Source of the DNA: Candidatus Poribacteria bacterium
Lineage (GTDB): Bacteria; Poribacteria; WGA-4E; PCPOR2b
Assembly (NCBI GenBank): GCA_028819845.1
Contig: JAPPKS010000013.1
Coordinates: 1-64,000 of the forward strand
Direction: 5' to 3'
DNA length: 64,000 bases
The translations under genes were made by a program, and so were the position numbers. Numbering within the stretch: position 1 is the stretch's first letter; every line of letters begins with the position of its first letter. Below are positions 16,260 through 28,145 of the stretch, one piece after another. The notes below the pieces were generated by a model. It was not told where the DNA came from, did no database searches, and saw only the letters and a list, made by a program, of their open reading frames with translations.

Positions 16260-16596
16260 TGCATCCGCACTCCGCCTTTCAAGAATTCCATTCAGTCAGA
16301 ATTGTGTCCGCAAGTGTTGACCATTATGGCACAATTGGCAGTATTGTGTCAAACAGTATTCCCCACCCACTGGCATACGTAACAAACGCTTTCGTCTTCT
16401 ATCTCGCCTCGATTTCCCACTCAACAAATTTCCCGCTGAATTTTTCGTAAAATCTGTGAACTTTTCATTTCCTTGCGGTGTCATTTAGAATGGAAGCTTA
16501 CCGGATGACCTATCGCCCCGCCTTTCGCCGGTAATTCTGAAAAGCAATATCAAAATGTCCTGAACCTAAGTCGGTACTTTCTTAAGCTGATGAGCA
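16260..16596. other. Intergenic region between VOC pseudogene and sigma gene
   Basis: About 340 bases between two divergent genes. I see no gene, RNA or repeat. A promoter for the sigma/RNA-polymerase-like pair is expected here, but no convincing -35/-10 pair stands out by eye. Confidence 0.4.
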
Positions 16597-17202
16597 TTGA
16601 TTTTACAATCCGATGAACTTCTCATTGATAAGATTCTTCAACGCGATGCGGAGGCGTTTGAAGTGCTTTGGGCACGATATAGCGCGTCCGTCCGCCAACA
16701 CATCATACGCACCGTACAGGACGAAAGTGCGGCCGAGGATTTGGTTCAGGAAGCATTCTTGCGTCTATGGACATCCGCTGAACAGTGGGACGGACGCGGT
16801 AGTTTCAAAGGGTGGTTTTTCCGCATCGCTACAAATCTCGCTCTCAATTATCTGCGCGCGCTGCGGCGGCGGAAGCAACAGCCCCTCGAATTACCGCCGG
16901 ATGATTTTGATGATGCGGACGAATCCGCGCCCGATCCGGATTGGATGATTGACACGTCGATACGTAGCCCCGACGCAATGTTAGTAAAAGCCGAGCAGTC
17001 TAATTTGCTTTGGCGGCTTGTTGAAGAACTCCCCGAAGATAAACGAGACGTGCTTCAGCTTGTATACCTGAAAGAGATGAATCTTCGCGACGTTGCCGCT
17101 GAGATTGGCGTCCCGGAAGGCACTGTAAAGTCGCGTTTACACTATTCGATTAGGCGCCTCGCTCAAGAATGGAAGGAGATTGCAGACGAAAACGAAGAAT
17201 AG
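16597..17202 (+). CDS. ECF-like sigma-70 family RNA polymerase sigma factor
   Basis: A 201-residue alternative sigma factor. Region 2 spans about residues 10-95 (FEVLWARYSASVR, ESAAEDLVQEAFLRLW, FKGWFFRIATNLALNYLR) and region 4 about 135-195 (LPEDKRDVLQLVYLKEMN, helix-turn-helix LRDVAAEIGVPEGTVKSRLH). A longer than usual acidic linker joins them (PPDDFDDADESAPDPDW). The start is TTG 16597; a stop lies two codons upstream and no ATG is available nearby. No anti-sigma gene follows; instead the next gene, 169 bases downstream on the same strand, encodes a fused RNA-polymerase-like protein, suggesting that the two work together. That functional link is inference. Confidence 0.9.
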   Translation: MILQSDELLIDKILQRDAEAFEVLWARYSASVRQHIIRTVQDESAAEDLVQEAFLRLWTSAEQWDGRGSFKGWFFRIATNLALNYLRALRRRKQQPLELPPDDFDDADESAPDPDWMIDTSIRSPDAMLVKAEQSNLLWRLVEELPEDKRDVLQLVYLKEMNLRDVAAEIGVPEGTVKSRLHYSIRRLAQEWKEIADENEE

Positions 17203-17253
17203 AGTAAGTGAGTAGGCGAGTGGAAGCGCAGCAAAGGCTATTTCTCGCCTCGC

Positions 17254-17316
17254 ATTACGTATTACGCATTACGCATTACGCATTACGTATTACGCATTAC
17301 GTATTACGCATTACGT
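17254..17316. repeat. Tandem heptamer array ATTACG(T/C), nine copies
   Basis: Nine head-to-tail copies of a 7-bp unit, ATTACGT or ATTACGC, fill 63 bases between the sigma factor stop and the RNA-polymerase-like gene. The final base alternates between T and C. The array ends 56 bases before the downstream ATG. It may be slippage-generated or a protein-binding array; a single ATTACGCATTA also occurs near 26228. Confidence 0.85.
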
Positions 17317-17371
17317 ATTCCACATCACGATTCACACTACACGAAATTCCCAATGGGAGGAGGAGACCGCA

Positions 17372-20300
17372 ATGTCACACAACGTCACCGCATTTTGGCA
17401 CAAAGAATCTTTTGGCAAACTGATGGGCAATCGGTTGCCAGGGCTACTCGCCGAGCGATTACCGTTAGCTGGCTTCCATTTTGAATCTGTCAGTGCTTAC
17501 ACCGGTCGTATCAAAATCTCCCTCACGTCAACTGATGGCGACGTTGAAGTTGAATACGCCGACATACCGCAGCCGGACGATGAAGGGATGTTCAAAATCG
17601 ACGGAGAAAATTATGTAGTTGTTCCAACGGCTTCGACCCATAAACTTAAAAAGGCAAAAATAAGATGTGTTGGGGACCAACTATACAGTTATTTCAAAAT
17701 GCGCTTGAAGGGTGCTTCCCTAGACCTGTCGTGGGAAGCAGCTTCTGTACGGTCATGGCTCCCACTTGATGAATGGTCACAGCAATTTTTTCGCGACACA
17801 TTTCACGCACAGAAACTACAGGAGACCAACTGGCTCGACAAGTATAGGCATCTTCGACGGTTATACGTTCTGAACCGCGAGAAGGTGTTCACCCCCTCCC
17901 ACTTCGGGCGGGCATGCCCTTTCGAGACGCCAGAGGGACCAAACATAGGTCGAATCCTTACGATTGCTAGGGGCGCCGAGATTCGCGGCGGAAAACTGGT
18001 CGTTGTTGATGAAAACCCAGAGGCAAACCTCGGCATAGCATCGGCAATGATCCCATTTCTTGAACACAACGATCCTGCCCGGACAATGATGGGGGCTAAC
18101 ATGTTGTGTCAGTGGATGGCGCCTTCGTCTCCGGAGACAGCTCCACTACGCCAAGCCAAAGAGATTCCGAGGTTGGCTGCTGCTCCGGAGCCCGCACTTG
18201 TCCAAACGGGTTACGAACCGGATGTGCCTGACTTTTGGTGCGGTCGCAACCTATTGACCGCTTTCATTTCATGGGGCGGCGATACCTTTGAAGACGGCAT
18301 CGTGATAAGCCAGTCGTGCGCAGCGCGTCTGGATTTTCCTTACGCCGTTGAACCCGGCGATAAGATTGGCAACCGCCATGGAACGAAAGGGGTCGTTTCG
18401 CGCATCCTGCCTGACGATGAGATGCCGCACCTTGACGACGGTACACCGGTGGAACTTGTATTCAGTTTCGGTGGCTTACACGCGCTAATGAACGTCGGTC
18501 AATTACGAGAGGCGGTGATGGGGCGTATTGCACGATTGGAAAATAAGCCAGCAATCGTGACGCCATTCCACGCACCGAGTGCAGGCGAATTACGCGAACG
18601 CATCAAAAACGCAGGACTTTCCGAAGACGGCATGGAGATCCTCACACTTGGGCGAGACGGTAAGAAGTTGGCAAGACCTAGCACAGTGGGTTGGGTTTAC
18701 TGGGGACGTCTGGCTCACATTGCGTTAGATAAAATAAAAGCATCCGACTCAACCAATATTGAAGACCATAGGTACTTCCAAACGCTTGGTGAATTTGAAT
18801 ACGATAGACTACGCAGCGCCTCAGTATTTGAAACATTGAGGGAACATTTTAACACACGCGCCATGAATCGGACTGATGCGTATACGTTAGCGGAGCGCCT
18901 CGCAATAGGCGAAATTGAGCAGGCGGACCCACCGACGCCGATGTTCGCTAACCTCACGAATCGGCTCTCGGCAGCAGGAATTCGGGTTACATTCAGCGGC
19001 GGCAAGTTGACTTTTGGATTTGCGCCGCCGAATGGGAATACGCTCAAGCTTGCTCAGCCCGTCCCTCATCCGTGGTGCCGCGATCAATTCCTTGATGAGG
19101 TCGGTATCCGTGAAGACATGCCTGAATATCACGGGCTTGCCGATGTTAACGCCAGGACTGAACGGATGCTTGCGAGTCGTACACCGGCAAGTCTAACCCG
19201 CCAATCCCTCAAGCAGCTCCAAACGCGCGTGGCAGAATATGTCAATGCGCTCCTAAGTCCAACTGTCATGAACTTTAAGTCACGGAGCCTCTTCAGCGGA
19301 CGCGCCGTCATTGCGCCGTCCGCAGAGTTGCGCGCTGATCAGGTCGGTATTCCGGAAGAGATGGCGTGGTCACTCTTTGGGCATCATGTTACAAAGAGAC
19401 TTGGTGGAGCAGAGGGAGTACGGCGGCGTAGTCAAGATGCAACACATGTCCTGGATGAATTGATGACGGGTTCGTGGGTAATTATGCTTCGTCCACCGGC
19501 GCATACACTCACTAACCTTGTTGCGTTTCATCCGGTGCGGCACCCCGACCGCGTCATCCGCGTGCACCCATTCGTGTGCGAGTTGATGAACGCCAATTTT
19601 GACGGCGATCAAGCAGCAGTCTTTCTCCCAATCACTGAAAGCGGACAACGCGAAGCCGGTGAACGGCTTTCCATCGCCGGACATCTGAAATACGACCCAA
19701 GTTTATCCAAATTGCTGGCACCGACGCATGACGCGATGTGGGGATTGGCGCATTTAAGCCTCACCCCGGAAGGGCGCGGCGAAATCGCCGAGATTATCGG
19801 CACCGACATCCCCGCCCCACACGGTCTGGTTAGACAAGATTCGCTGGCAAAGTCACTAGAAGCCATCCTCAAATGCGATGGAATAGACCGCACGATTGAA
19901 ATAGCCGAACGTCTAATGCGGCGCGGGCTCGCAATTGCTAAGGAATCGGGTGCTTCCATGAGCGCATTCATCAGCAGCCCCGCCGGCAGTCCATCCGTTC
20001 CGGTAGATCCCAACGATGCACCCGCTTGGAACGCTTATGCTGAAGAGCTGGTCGAATGGCTTGCCGCGTGTAACGACTTCGCGGACAACAACTTGGGACC
20101 GCACATCCTTGCGGCAAAAAGCCAACACGCACATAGTAGATTTCATCGAATCGCTTGTTGTGTCGGGGGGAAAGGTACGGTTTTGGACCTTCAAGGAAGA
20201 GATATCATCGTTCGCAACGGGTATAGCGACGGTTTAACACCCGGGGAACTTTACCCGCTTTCCGTCATTTCGCGGGAGGAGATTGTGCGGCTCAATTTGG

Positions 20301-20491
20301 AACGACAACGGATAGAATTGGAATTGCGCAACGACAGTGAGCCGGCAGGATTCACCGTCCTAGTGCGTGCAATGCGCGCTAAACACCCAGGTTTCGTTTT
20401 CGCCCGAGCCGCTGCTACCGGCGAGACCGATCCGCTTACTGATGTGGACAGCCGTCTTTTCGTCGGGCTACCTGTATCAACGGAGGAGTGA
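17372..20491 (+). CDS. Single-chain fused beta/beta-prime RNA-polymerase-like protein
   Basis: One 1039-residue chain carries core motifs of both large RNA polymerase subunits in order. Beta-type: GRACPFETPEGPNIG (179-193), GDTFEDGIVIS (303-313), GDKIGNRHGTKGVVS (329-343, both conserved Lys K331 and K339), DDGTPVELVF and MNVGQ. Beta-prime-type: SGRAVIAPSAEL (642-653), MLRPPAHT, HPFVCELMNANFDGDQ (732-747), LLAPTHDAMWGL, and a G/DGLTPGE stretch near 954-959. The metal motif NADFDGD reads NANFDGD: N742 replaces the first catalytic Asp (D460 in E. coli), while D744 and D746 remain. The chain ends about where the bridge helix would be, so no trigger loop is seen. The beta N-terminal lobes, flap and most of beta-prime are absent. 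Strong GGGAGGAGGAG precedes the ATG. It may be a minimal, altered or regulatory polymerase. Confidence 0.88.
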   Translation: MSHNVTAFWHKESFGKLMGNRLPGLLAERLPLAGFHFESVSAYTGRIKISLTSTDGDVEVEYADIPQPDDEGMFKIDGENYVVVPTASTHKLKKAKIRCVGDQLYSYFKMRLKGASLDLSWEAASVRSWLPLDEWSQQFFRDTFHAQKLQETNWLDKYRHLRRLYVLNREKVFTPSHFGRACPFETPEGPNIGRILTIARGAEIRGGKLVVVDENPEANLGIASAMIPFLEHNDPARTMMGANMLCQWMAPSSPETAPLRQAKEIPRLAAAPEPALVQTGYEPDVPDFWCGRNLLTAFISWGGDTFEDGIVISQSCAARLDFPYAVEPGDKIGNRHGTKGVVSRILPDDEMPHLDDGTPVELVFSFGGLHALMNVGQLREAVMGRIARLENKPAIVTPFHAPSAGELRERIKNAGLSEDGMEILTLGRDGKKLARPSTVGWVYWGRLAHIALDKIKASDSTNIEDHRYFQTLGEFEYDRLRSASVFETLREHFNTRAMNRTDAYTLAERLAIGEIEQADPPTPMFANLTNRLSAAGIRVTFSGGKLTFGFAPPNGNTLKLAQPVPHPWCRDQFLDEVGIREDMPEYHGLADVNARTERMLASRTPASLTRQSLKQLQTRVAEYVNALLSPTVMNFKSRSLFSGRAVIAPSAELRADQVGIPEEMAWSLFGHHVTKRLGGAEGVRRRSQDATHVLDELMTGSWVIMLRPPAHTLTNLVAFHPVRHPDRVIRVHPFVCELMNANFDGDQAAVFLPITESGQREAGERLSIAGHLKYDPSLSKLLAPTHDAMWGLAHLSLTPEGRGEIAEIIGTDIPAPHGLVRQDSLAKSLEAILKCDGIDRTIEIAERLMRRGLAIAKESGASMSAFISSPAGSPSVPVDPNDAPAWNAYAEELVEWLAACNDFADNNLGPHILAAKSQHAHSRFHRIACCVGGKGTVLDLQGRDIIVRNGYSDGLTPGELYPLSVISREEIVRLNLERQRIELELRNDSEPAGFTVLVRAMRAKHPGFVFARAAATGETDPLTDVDSRLFVGLPVSTEE

Positions 20492-22447: not shown

Positions 22448-23608
22448 TCAAATTATGGTGCTGTGGGCACGTAGATACCGCGCCACCTCAACACGGTTTT
22501 CGTGTTCTGCCCATGCGAGCGGGGATAGGTGATGAGCACCGTCTTTATTATTTAGGTTTGCACCTCGCTCTGCGAGAAGCATGACTACTGCCAGATGGCC
22601 TTTGAACACCGCAAAGTGCAGCGGCGTCCACACTGCGCCTAAGCCGGGGGGTATCGCATCAACTCGCGCGCCTCGTTCAATCAGCAACGCGGCAACCTCC
22701 GCACGACCGTTCAAACTTGCAATACACAATGCTTCTTCGAGAATCTCTTGCGGATCGTCCGACCGACACGTCTCTTCAAACCAGCCGATTTCGCCGAGGT
22801 TCGGTCGATCAGATGCCGCCTCCGGCTTCAGGGCTCCATCTTCAGCAAAGTAAGACTTAACCGAGTCAATGCCGCCGGCGCCCGCCGCCATCCAAAAGCT
22901 ACACGGCGATATTCCACGCTCAATCCAAAAATCGACAGCATCCCGATTCCCGTGCAACATGGCCGATTTTATCTGCCAAACGGCGGGCGATTCGTCCGAG
23001 CGTAACGCGCCGGTTTCGATGAGGAGTTGGACAGCTTCTATATTGTTTGCCCAAAACACTTTTTCCATTCGAGCCCCTGCTCCGATAAGGGCGCGCATTA
23101 TGGGAAGTCGAGTGTCGGTGGAGATGCCTTCGATCGAGGCGGCGTATTCAAGAAGTGTGATATAGTCCTCAGATATCTCGGGCGCCTTTATCATCGCGTT
23201 GACAATGGAGGGGTCATGTTTTAACAGTTCTCTCAGTGTGTCTGAATCGCCTTTCCTGACGGCTTCAAACGCTGCACTCAAGGTATCGTCGGTGTGCTCC
23301 GTAGGGTCGGCTCCGAGCATGATTGCACGCTCGATGAGTGCCTCCCAACTCGTAAATCCTCTTTCACGCGCAATCACGAGTTGCGCCTCTTTTAATGACA
23401 GGTCCGAGGCGCGGACTTGTTCATATTTTGCACCCGCAAATCGCGGCAGGTATTCCCGAAGGCGGTGAGCAGCCCAACGCAAACCGGATTGATGCGCCTT
23501 CAATAGAATTCGCGCTAGTCTCTGGTAGTAGGCGCCGCCTTTCCCCCATCCCCACAACATATGGTCGCGCGGATCTCGCGTGGCGTGCTCGATCGAGTTC
23601 GCAGTCAT
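22448..23608 (-). CDS. Ankyrin-repeat protein
   Basis: A 386-residue cytosolic protein without a signal peptide. The N-terminal 100 residues are helical (LSLKEAQLVIARERGFTSW). From about residue 105 onward come ankyrin repeats, such as DSDTLRELLKHDPSIVNA, NGRAEVAALLIERGARVDA and GHLAVVMLLAERGANLNN. Ankyrin repeats bind proteins; in bacteria that live with animals they often act on host partners, but no secretion signal is visible here. The MTANSIEH start has GAGGA 12 bases upstream, a loose fit. Confidence 0.88.
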   Translation of the reverse strand: MTANSIEHATRDPRDHMLWGWGKGGAYYQRLARILLKAHQSGLRWAAHRLREYLPRFAGAKYEQVRASDLSLKEAQLVIARERGFTSWEALIERAIMLGADPTEHTDDTLSAAFEAVRKGDSDTLRELLKHDPSIVNAMIKAPEISEDYITLLEYAASIEGISTDTRLPIMRALIGAGARMEKVFWANNIEAVQLLIETGALRSDESPAVWQIKSAMLHGNRDAVDFWIERGISPCSFWMAAGAGGIDSVKSYFAEDGALKPEAASDRPNLGEIGWFEETCRSDDPQEILEEALCIASLNGRAEVAALLIERGARVDAIPPGLGAVWTPLHFAVFKGHLAVVMLLAERGANLNNKDGAHHLSPLAWAEHENRVEVARYLRAHSTII

Positions 23609-26309: not shown

Positions 26310-28145
26310 TCAATTGAGTCCTCCACCAACCCCCGTCTGTTCTAACCTATGAATACCCGTTATCCACTCACGCCGCATTTGCGGGGAATAATCTTCAGGA
26401 AGCAATGACTTTATAGTGCAATTCGTTAGGGCTTGCAGCGTTTGATATTGCCTGACAGGTCCGATATTCGGGAGAATGCGATCGTCCGCGATTTCAAGAA
26501 TTTGCTCGATCGATAGCGAACCGTCTTTGGCGGCTGCGCTAAGGTCGGAACGGAGTGAAGCGAAACTTGCCGCGGAATAGCCTTTTGTAGCTTGGAACAA
26601 CTTATCCATGAACGAATCTCCAATTGTTTCGTTGATAATGTCCCGCACTGTCCACCTGATAAACGCTTCCCGATCCCTGCCTTCAGGATCAAGCACCGGT
26701 ATAATCATGTCGCCGACTCTTCCCTCTCGCCGCAAGTCCGGTGATAGATTGTAAATCCTAGCGGTCATCAGCAGCCACGTAATGTTGCCCTTGAGTTGGG
26801 GGTCTGACATCATCGCCTGTATCCTTCCTGTCAGTCGCCGTTCGGTGGCATGTGATTCTCGTCCGACTTCACCGAATTGCGTGTCCGCCTCATCCACGAA
26901 AATCATGACTTTAACCAGCGCCGCCAATAAACGCCGGAGACGTTCAAAGATGACATCCGTTTGCCCAAACCACATACTCCTGATGTTTTTTAAAACTAAA
27001 ACAGGAATATCCAAGTCGCCCGCAAGGCCCTCGAAAATAAACGTCTTCCCGCTTCCAATCGGACCGCAAACCGCCGCGCCCGAGATTGCATCCGCTCCAG
27101 TTGACGTGATGCGAGGTAACAGTTTGGTCTGAATAAAGGAGACCAACCGCTCATTTCCGATCACTGCTTTCAAGCCGTGTGCCGGTTTTTTAAATTCGAC
27201 GACATCTTCACCCAACTGCCCCTCAATAAAGTCGGAAACTTTCTCTATGACATCGCCCGGCTGAATTTTATTTCCTGAGTAGAGCCCCATTATCAGAAGT
27301 TGCCGCAGCGCATGGATGGAAATCCCGGCCGTCAGTATAGCAAGTTGTTCCTGTGTTCCCCAGAGTTGCAACCGCTTCTCTTTAGGTTTTTGGAGCCGAT
27401 TGAACCAAAAAATGAAATGTCGTCGTTCTTCAACGCCGGGCGACGGGATTTCAACGGTCGCGATTTGAGGTAACCGGGTGATTCTGGAGTTCAACAAGCT
27501 TTTGGATTCCGCGATAAACATAACCGTGTCATCCCCATTCATGAAATCAGGGTCAAGAATCCAATCTTGGACAATGCTGACTCGATGCCTATCCGCTTGG
27601 GACAGACTCTGAATTTCACCCACTGGAAGCAACATGTCAGCCGCTTCAATTATTATCACTAGCCTTTCTCTCAACAAATTATCGCCAAGTGACTCAACTG
27701 ATCGCGAGAGTAAACACAATTGCCGGAGGAATTCCAGGGCGACCGTTGGGTGTCCTATCGAACCATTCAGATGTGCGTCAAATTGCTCCTCCGCGGATTT
27801 CACCGGTTTATCTGGGATGAGATAGTCAAAGGTGTTTCTGGAGAGAGGGTTTTGATCTGAATCTTGCCGCCACAATCCGAAGGAATTTTTCAGTTTTGCC
27901 CTGTCGCTGACTCTCAAAAACCTGATTGGGCCATTGAGTTCATAAACCATGAGGATAAAACCTGCCACATCCCAGCTCTTCGTCAAAAGTGAAACTAGTG
28001 GAACATAATCCCCCTCGTCTTTGGCTTCAGCGCAATAGAATAGATCGTGGATGTTTCCTGCAAGGATAAGCGTTCTCGACGTTCCTGCGTTGATTATTGT
28101 TCCCGTTTGAGATAGAAACTCATATTTCGGCTTTTTGACGGCTAT
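26310..28145 (-). CDS. AAA+ ATPase with degenerate N-terminal domain (Ycf46-like)
   Basis: The frame from the first TTG (27986) gives 558 residues, but family-like sequence continues upstream without a break (SRTLILAGNIHDLFY, EGDYVPLVSLL) to an ATA at 28143-28145 that has GGAGG 10-13 bases before it; that start gives 611 residues. There is no ATG, GTG or TTG in this extension. The N-terminal half has a degenerate nucleotide-binding fold (LVIIIEAADMLLP). The active AAA+ domain has Walker A GPIGSGKT (361-368) and Walker B VMIFVDEAD (413-421), plus sensor and arginine-finger region LLMTARIYNLSPDLRR. It is last in a pspA-like operon and may remodel the PspA polymer (inference). Confidence 0.85.
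   Translation of the reverse strand: MAVKKPKYEFLSQTGTIINAGTSRTLILAGNIHDLFYCAEAKDEGDYVPLVSLLTKSWDVAGFILMVYELNGPIRFLRVSDRAKLKNSFGLWRQDSDQNPLSRNTFDYLIPDKPVKSAEEQFDAHLNGSIGHPTVALEFLRQLCLLSRSVESLGDNLLRERLVIIIEAADMLLPVGEIQSLSQADRHRVSIVQDWILDPDFMNGDDTVMFIAESKSLLNSRITRLPQIATVEIPSPGVEERRHFIFWFNRLQKPKEKRLQLWGTQEQLAILTAGISIHALRQLLIMGLYSGNKIQPGDVIEKVSDFIEGQLGEDVVEFKKPAHGLKAVIGNERLVSFIQTKLLPRITSTGADAISGAAVCGPIGSGKTFIFEGLAGDLDIPVLVLKNIRSMWFGQTDVIFERLRRLLAALVKVMIFVDEADTQFGEVGRESHATERRLTGRIQAMMSDPQLKGNITWLLMTARIYNLSPDLRREGRVGDMIIPVLDPEGRDREAFIRWTVRDIINETIGDSFMDKLFQATKGYSAASFASLRSDLSAAAKDGSLSIEQILEIADDRILPNIGPVRQYQTLQALTNCTIKSLLPEDYSPQMRREWITGIHRLEQTGVGGGLN

Follow-up and report, generated by a model that had tools for sequence, protein, structure and literature searches.

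A compact single-chain RNA polymerase gene paired with an ECF sigma factor gene in Candidatus Poribacteria

Bacteria are thought to run one core RNA polymerase that is shared among many sigma factors, and the known examples of a second core enzyme come chiefly from phages and plasmids. The rpoB-rpoC fusions of Helicobacter and Wolbachia, in which beta is followed by beta' in a single chain, are the housekeeping enzyme. YonO of phage SPbeta and YonO-like proteins are single-chain, two-barrel enzymes with no detectable trigger loop (PMC5467207), and the flap is absent from YonO as well (PMC7824862). Fused two-barrel derivatives and the yeast killer-plasmid enzymes are single-chain or simplified members of the multi-subunit clade (PMC10770324, PMC6211774), and the nvRNAP of the jumbo phage AR9 is a private polymerase with its own promoter-specificity subunit (PMC9209446). 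Here we analyzed a stretch of 64,000 nucleotides (the window) from a Candidatus Poribacteria genome, which contains a gene for a compact polymerase. It shares with the fusions the order beta then beta' in one chain, with YonO and the other fused derivatives a single chain in which two barrels are inferred from sequence, with YonO also the lack of a trigger loop and flap, and, if the module proposed below holds, with AR9 nvRNAP a specificity factor of its own.

Identity and anatomy of the compact chain

The gene, at 17372..20491 on the plus strand, had an ATG start and no stop codon inside the ORF, and it encoded a protein of 1039 aa, under half the combined length of ordinary beta and beta'. 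The protein matched the Pfam families RNA_pol_Rpb2_6 (E 2.9e-39, aa 326-459), RNA_pol_Rpb1_2 (E 5.8e-16), and RNA_pol_Rpb2_3 (E 5.5e-9, aa 148-204), in each case exceeding the gathering score. The NCBIfam models for rpoB (E 3.9e-47; 160 bits, with 801 needed) and rpoC (E 9.5e-21) were matched far under their full-length cut-offs, and these models gave better matches than those for archaeal rpoB (9.9e-32) and archaeal A' (9.9e-8), respectively. In profile-profile alignment by hhalign, residues 11-544 corresponded to E. coli beta (probability 100, E 8e-48) and the second half of the chain to beta' (probability 99.8, E 1e-29), and the top matches among solved structures in the PDB were bacterial beta and beta' chains. 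Pfam and PHROG scans of the protein matched beta and beta' families and no family labelled YonO; the strength of the rpoB and rpoC matches also failed the criterion for a YonO-like protein, namely similarity limited to a few barrel residues. The homology and domain content of the chain are thus shown. The initial annotation had described a single chain of 1039 aa with a beta core followed by a beta' core, and this held in the Pfam, NCBIfam, and profile-profile comparisons, the profile search that it had proposed matching both RpoB and RpoC. Its statement that the protein was not a full-length rpoB-rpoC fusion of the Helicobacter type held as well, given the length of the chain and the presence of separate canonical rpoB (1305 aa) and rpoC (1415 aa) genes, both full length, on a different contig (C25) of the same genome (G000; 4.6 Mb, 35 contigs). 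These separate genes all but exclude that the compact gene is the genome's own rpoB/rpoC, and an assembly or annotation artefact is all but excluded by full-length orthologues in 10 other assemblies.

All features of the chain given below lie on the plus strand. The beta half contained a fork/RRDR-like region, GRACPFETPEGPNIG, and a beta double-psi barrel with E307, D308, K331, and K339 (17813..18748), as identified by Rpb2_3, Rpb2_6, and a residue map, and the N-terminal 90 residues of the chain showed weak likeness to the start of the beta protrusion. At the flap deletion site (18290..18364), the ED motif was separated from the GDK motif by 18 aa, compared with 246 in E. coli beta; the spacing was 18 aa in 12/12 compact sequences, and the flap was absent. 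A Rpb2_7-like beta C-terminal region followed (18749..19003), as indicated by hhalign with the E. coli beta C-terminus, and then a beta' clamp-helix hairpin (aa 584-627; 19121..19252) that aligned with E. coli beta' around 265-309. The clamp-helix hairpin of beta' is the canonical dock for sigma region 2; in the compact chain, the equivalents of E. coli R275 and E295 in this hairpin were not conserved. The beta' double-psi barrel (aa 638-800; 19283..19771) was supported by Rpb1_2, by matches to beta' in the PDB, and by block pLDDT values of mostly 69-92. From the alignment, we assigned the catalytic motif (19589..19609; NANFDGD in the window copy and NADFDGD in most relatives), a diverged bridge-helix region (20240..20317), and a C-terminus that matched the beta' C-terminal switch region (20357..20473). 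The bridge helix of the Phycisphaeraceae copy was near-canonical (GARKGIA). No compact sequence had any residue aligned at beta' 932-936 of the trigger loop, and no trigger loop was present between the bridge helix and the C-terminal switch region of the compact chain. The zinc domain was absent, and most of the lobe and clamp was also gone. The positions equivalent to rifampicin-site residues 516 and 531 were altered in most compact copies, which would fit rifampicin insensitivity, a possibility read from sequence alone.

A first AlphaFold model from 10 sequences was poor (pLDDT 48). A second model from 43 rows (mean pLDDT 52.7, pTM 0.37) was confident for the beta' half only; it showed the clamp hairpin as two helices (block pLDDT 77-92) and gave no confident structure for the beta half. 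A Foldseek search with the compact model retrieved beta' chains with E down to 5e-18, but the whole-model TM was only about 0.25, and this search therefore provides no independent proof of two barrels. The structure check proposed in the initial annotation thus gave a confident model for the beta' half only: both double-psi barrels are supported by sequence homology, that of beta' also by the model, and the beta barrel remains inferred from sequence alone.

Sigma factor pairing, promoter, and distribution

Directly 5' of the compact polymerase gene is an ECF sigma factor gene (16597..17202, plus strand) encoding 201 aa from a TTG start, with regions 2 and 4 only, and this order was found at 12/12 testable loci in two phyla. 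The sigma protein matched Sigma70_r2 (E 4.6e-18), Sigma70_r4 (E 1.5e-12), and TIGR02937 (1e-34), and it looked fully canonical in regions 2 and 4. By gene clustering, the sigma gene was the sole neighbour common to all 10 Poribacteria loci, the remaining neighbourhood falling into several contexts, and both Phycisphaerae loci having upstream sequence also carried it. The gap between the two genes was 169 nt in the window, 4 nt in G102, and 73-324 nt at other loci; the sigma stop and polymerase start overlapped by 4 nt in G171, and the called polymerase start overlapped the sigma gene in G002 (L011). A heptamer tandem repeat, CGCATTA/CGTATTA in about 10 copies (17251..17319, plus strand), occupies part of the gap in the window and is probably incidental. 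A sigma orthologue (E 1e-68 or better) was present in 10/10 Poribacteria genomes whose polymerase gene was complete and in 0/75 others, in which the top ECF paralogue match was 1e-29. The G065 genome, with a partial polymerase gene, had no sigma orthologue, and in both G005 and G065 the loss of the polymerase accompanied the absence of sigma. The genomes in this co-occurrence are not all independent events. No conserved adjacent anti-sigma gene was found, the compact polymerase being the only conserved neighbour of sigma; such a gene is usual for ECF sigma factors, not universal. Neither the polymerase nor the sigma protein matched the PADLOC anti-phage defence models. Elsewhere in the window, an ankyrin-repeat protein (22451-23608) weakly matched a PADLOC candidate-defence model, and 26313-27986 encodes an AAA ATPase.

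An ECF-type promoter, TGAACTTTT-N10-CGGTGTC with a conserved tail, was located at 16457..16492 (motif 16457-16482, plus strand). At 12/12 loci, TGAAC-N15-GGTGTC occurred with constant spacing, either 5' of the called sigma ORF or at its 5' end; the usual form had the extended motif of the window followed by ATYNACAGTG, and its elements were a GAAC-type -35 and a GTC-type -10. The window promoter matched the 16-base form exactly, and with ≤3 mismatches there were 3 matches in the window compared with 0.53 expected. Each of the eight Poribacteria genomes of family f1 with the module had exactly one exact match, at the module operon. With the 19-base form, ≤3 mismatches gave one match in the window genome and 0 in the control, and ≤1 mismatch gave as the only additional sites one in each of the two genomes of the second Poribacteria family, f2. 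These two sites (L189 = G012:C27; L190 = G009:C1; genus g5) were conserved between both genomes and lay 5' of two ABC-2 permease genes, a pair that is the only candidate target outside the module, as a possibility inferred from its sequence. Near-matches with 2 mismatches in the window genome were rejected as a regulon, being inside coding regions or without the extended motif, and sites in G171 C123 and G002 C512 were rejected as targets, both being within coding sequence. The gene pairing, its co-occurrence, and the conservation and near-uniqueness of the promoter are shown. The module seems to be autoregulated with a very small recognizable regulon, although recognition of the promoter by sigma is inferred and the search was blind to targets with diverged promoters. 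Several Poribacteria genomes contained long runs of adjacent ABC-2 permease/DUF3526 paralogues (G008:C46:58316-72824, G009:C22:6507-23518, and G012:C6:648-15719).

Nine further Poribacteria genomes, from two families, carried complete orthologues of the polymerase, with about 50-68% identity to the window protein; over the phylum, 11/85 genomes matched. The close relative G005 retained only a C-terminal remnant of 53 residues containing a stop, and the more distant Poribacteria genome G065 (L048:4308-6368) encoded a C-terminal part of 686 aa with no stop and the motif DLDFDGDQ. Outside Poribacteria, 3/298 genomes from the class of one Phycisphaeraceae genome matched, the gene being full length in G171 and interrupted by contig ends in G102 and G085. 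Wider genome draws gave 1/392 and 1/26, both G171 itself, and no further case. The count of homologues, a check also named in the initial annotation, thus indicated a narrow spread over Poribacteria and a few Phycisphaerae of the Planctomycetes. Extra matches in G003 (L029, L030) were ordinary rpoB and rpoC pieces, probably contamination. In a phylogenetic tree, the compact proteins grouped in a single clade (UFBoot 100), separated by a long branch from cellular and phage enzymes; within it, the Poribacteria branches tracked genome grouping, and the Phycisphaerae sequence was basal. The tree was built from 433 conserved columns, unrooted and without Archaea, and it does not fix how deep the split is. 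Scans of IMG/VR viral contigs with the single protein and with a C-terminal alignment gave no relative of the compact polymerase, the full-alignment scan gave separate-subunit phage enzymes only, and plasmid and phage records gave generic RNA polymerase matches only. A prophage or plasmid origin was rejected on the lack of relatives in the viral contigs, plasmids, and phage records searched.

Several joined or sigma-associated viral polymerases were also observed. IMGVR_UViG_3300018427_002048 (L078:8680-15270) encodes a 2196-aa single-chain beta-beta' polymerase that branches beside cellular bacterial enzymes. Beta is joined to part of beta' in gp206 of Salmonella phage Arash (L065:1643-6220; 1525 aa, annotated as beta subunit) and in a protein of Vibrio phage D148 (L064:3203-6223; 1006 aa, annotated as hypothetical). 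In Cobetia phage Carin-5 (L067:3559-10384), a phage sigma-factor gene lies directly 5' of the beta' and beta genes, possibly a viral parallel to the sigma-polymerase pair; the Carin-5 sigma was not picked up by the profile of the compact-module sigma.

Active site, proposed module, and rival readings

The relatives retained the equivalents of beta E565, E813, D814, K1073, and H1237 and of beta' R352, R425, D460, D462, and D464, and beta K1073, E813, and D814 and beta' R425 were kept in all sequences covering those positions. Changes unique to the window copy were N at D460, C at R687, and L at R1106, and the f2 copies had T or A at K1065 and H at R678. The catalytic Asp triad was complete in every compact sequence except that of the window. 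The initial annotation had read NANFDGDQ as a hallmark motif of RpoC, which held only in part: the motif is not intact, its second N being Asp in all homologues. This D-to-N change had been overlooked, as had the upstream ECF sigma gene and the conserved promoter. Of the columns that did not vary among the nine other Poribacteria sequences, 3/13 at the active site were changed in the window copy compared with 18/334 overall, a modest enrichment (hypergeometric p 0.027). Apart from these changes, the window branch was not fast-evolving (dN/dS about 0.13-0.15; identity of 65-68% with most f1 relatives), the compact polymerase was under purifying selection (dN/dS about 0.13-0.18), and the active-site losses of the window and f2 copies sit in intact ORFs under this selection. 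YonO with all three Asp replaced by Asn formed stable complexes and lost RNA extension (PMC5467207). The three were changed together and a single change was not covered in that work; inactivity of the window copy is therefore only an inference. From the sequence and the YonO triple mutant, and without activity data, catalysis by the window copy is probably impaired, and the ancestral compact enzyme was probably catalytic, again without activity data. The initial annotation had suggested a compact, derived class of polymerase or a polymerase mimic. A compact distinct class was supported, on a stronger case than the annotation had made, and both options still stand: the active site is preserved in most homologues but partly lost in the window copy and in one other lineage.

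We propose that the two genes form an autoregulated chromosomal module of sigma and compact polymerase, a reading that, without expression or activity data, we hold as likely to fail as to stand. The ECF sigma would read its own promoter, TGAAC-N15-GGTGTC, and the operon would yield both sigma and a compact, flapless, bacterial-type single-chain polymerase. Sigma would most likely dock on the retained beta' clamp hairpin, directing the compact enzyme to the module promoter, and the outcome would be positive feedback by a self-contained mini-RNA-polymerase with a very small regulon, including in one genus the ABC-permease operon. Binding of sigma to the compact chain, RNA polymerization by the chain, and use of the promoter are all three inferred. 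The module is supported by a pairing that persists though other neighbours vary between groups and by the retention of the clamp hairpin, both catalytic cores, and most active-site residues. Against it, the compact enzyme has lost the flap, to which canonical enzymes anchor sigma region 4; its hairpin does not conserve R275 and E295; no copy has a trigger loop; the canonical-looking sigma could work with the host core enzyme; and two lineages with intact genes have lost active-site residues. In a bolder reading, the pair would be a self-transcribing chromosomal mini system whose private core, without flap, zinc domain, trigger loop, and presumably alpha, serves mainly its own promoter; we lean slightly against it. 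A role in transcription while the main enzyme is blocked is possible but speculative.

The missing flap beside a canonical sigma, together with active-site losses in intact genes, keeps a regulator reading as a real rival. Here, sigma would use the host RNA polymerase, and the compact chain, a stripped core with a sigma dock that perhaps binds nucleotide or nucleic acid, would bind sigma as an anti-sigma or co-regulator, catalysis being dispensable in some lineages. ECF sigma genes usually adjoin their own regulators, and there is no other conserved partner here; regions 2 and 4 of sigma are of canonical type, and the window and f2 losses under purifying selection also fit. However, the three catalytic Asp are kept everywhere but in the window, although a pure sigma trap would need none, beta K1073, E813, and D814 and beta' R425 are conserved where covered, and known anti-sigmas are small. 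We regard this reading as possible. It is unlikely that the chain is an active sigma-independent polymerase, RNA- or DNA-templated or primase-like in the manner of QDE-1 or YonO, merely co-expressed with a sigma that uses the host core. The lack of a flap and the diverged clamp hairpin suggest that canonical promoter contacts were lost, and YonO, a minimal two-barrel chain, is processive without most domains (PMC5467207), but the gene co-occurs strictly with a single sigma and has no other partner, which speaks against it. It is also unlikely that the chain lacks a function today and is the decaying remnant of a polymerase from a mobile element or phage. The patchy spread over two phyla, the G005 remnant and truncated G065 copy, and the active-site erosion in two lineages would agree with decay, whereas viral contigs, plasmids, and phages gave nothing beyond generic RNA polymerase matches, and purifying selection, the conserved promoter, and branches matching host grouping oppose it.

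If the module reading is true, a chromosomal pair of sigma and mini-polymerase would break the one-core rule; to our knowledge, no other dedicated, sigma-dependent second core enzyme that is bacterial and non-viral has been described, and this would be the first. It would also provide a natural minimal enzyme to probe the need for flap, trigger loop, alpha, and zinc domain in sigma-dependent initiation. If the chain is a regulator instead, it would be an example of a regulatory protein derived from the core of an RNA polymerase, and its relatives would display different stages in the loss of catalysis.

Comparison with known polymerases

In the open-access literature searched, we found no description of such a pairing of sigma and compact polymerase. 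The compact chain shares with canonical RpoB and RpoC bacterial-type catalytic cores, the beta C-terminus, the clamp hairpin, the bridge-helix region, and the beta' C-terminus, but it is one chain of 1039 aa in a clade of its own, without flap, zinc domain, or trigger loop. The full-length fusions measure about 2,840-2,890 aa by NCBIfam model lengths, whereas the compact chain exists beside separate housekeeping genes. YonO shares few residues with multi-subunit enzymes, whereas the compact chain has clear similarity to beta and beta' and a dedicated ECF sigma. The phage polymerases (the IMG/VR separate-subunit type, L078, Arash, and Carin-5) are also beta/beta' homologues, two of them single-chain, but they form separate branches, none inside the compact clade. 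AR9 nvRNAP is multi-subunit and viral, and its specificity subunit differs from an ordinary ECF sigma. The killer-plasmid enzymes and other fused derivatives reside on cytoplasmic elements or in viruses, in contrast to the chromosomal sigma-polymerase pair. Among fused polymerases, the compact chain, with two barrels inferred from sequence, is distinctive in its chromosomal setting and its dedicated ECF sigma.
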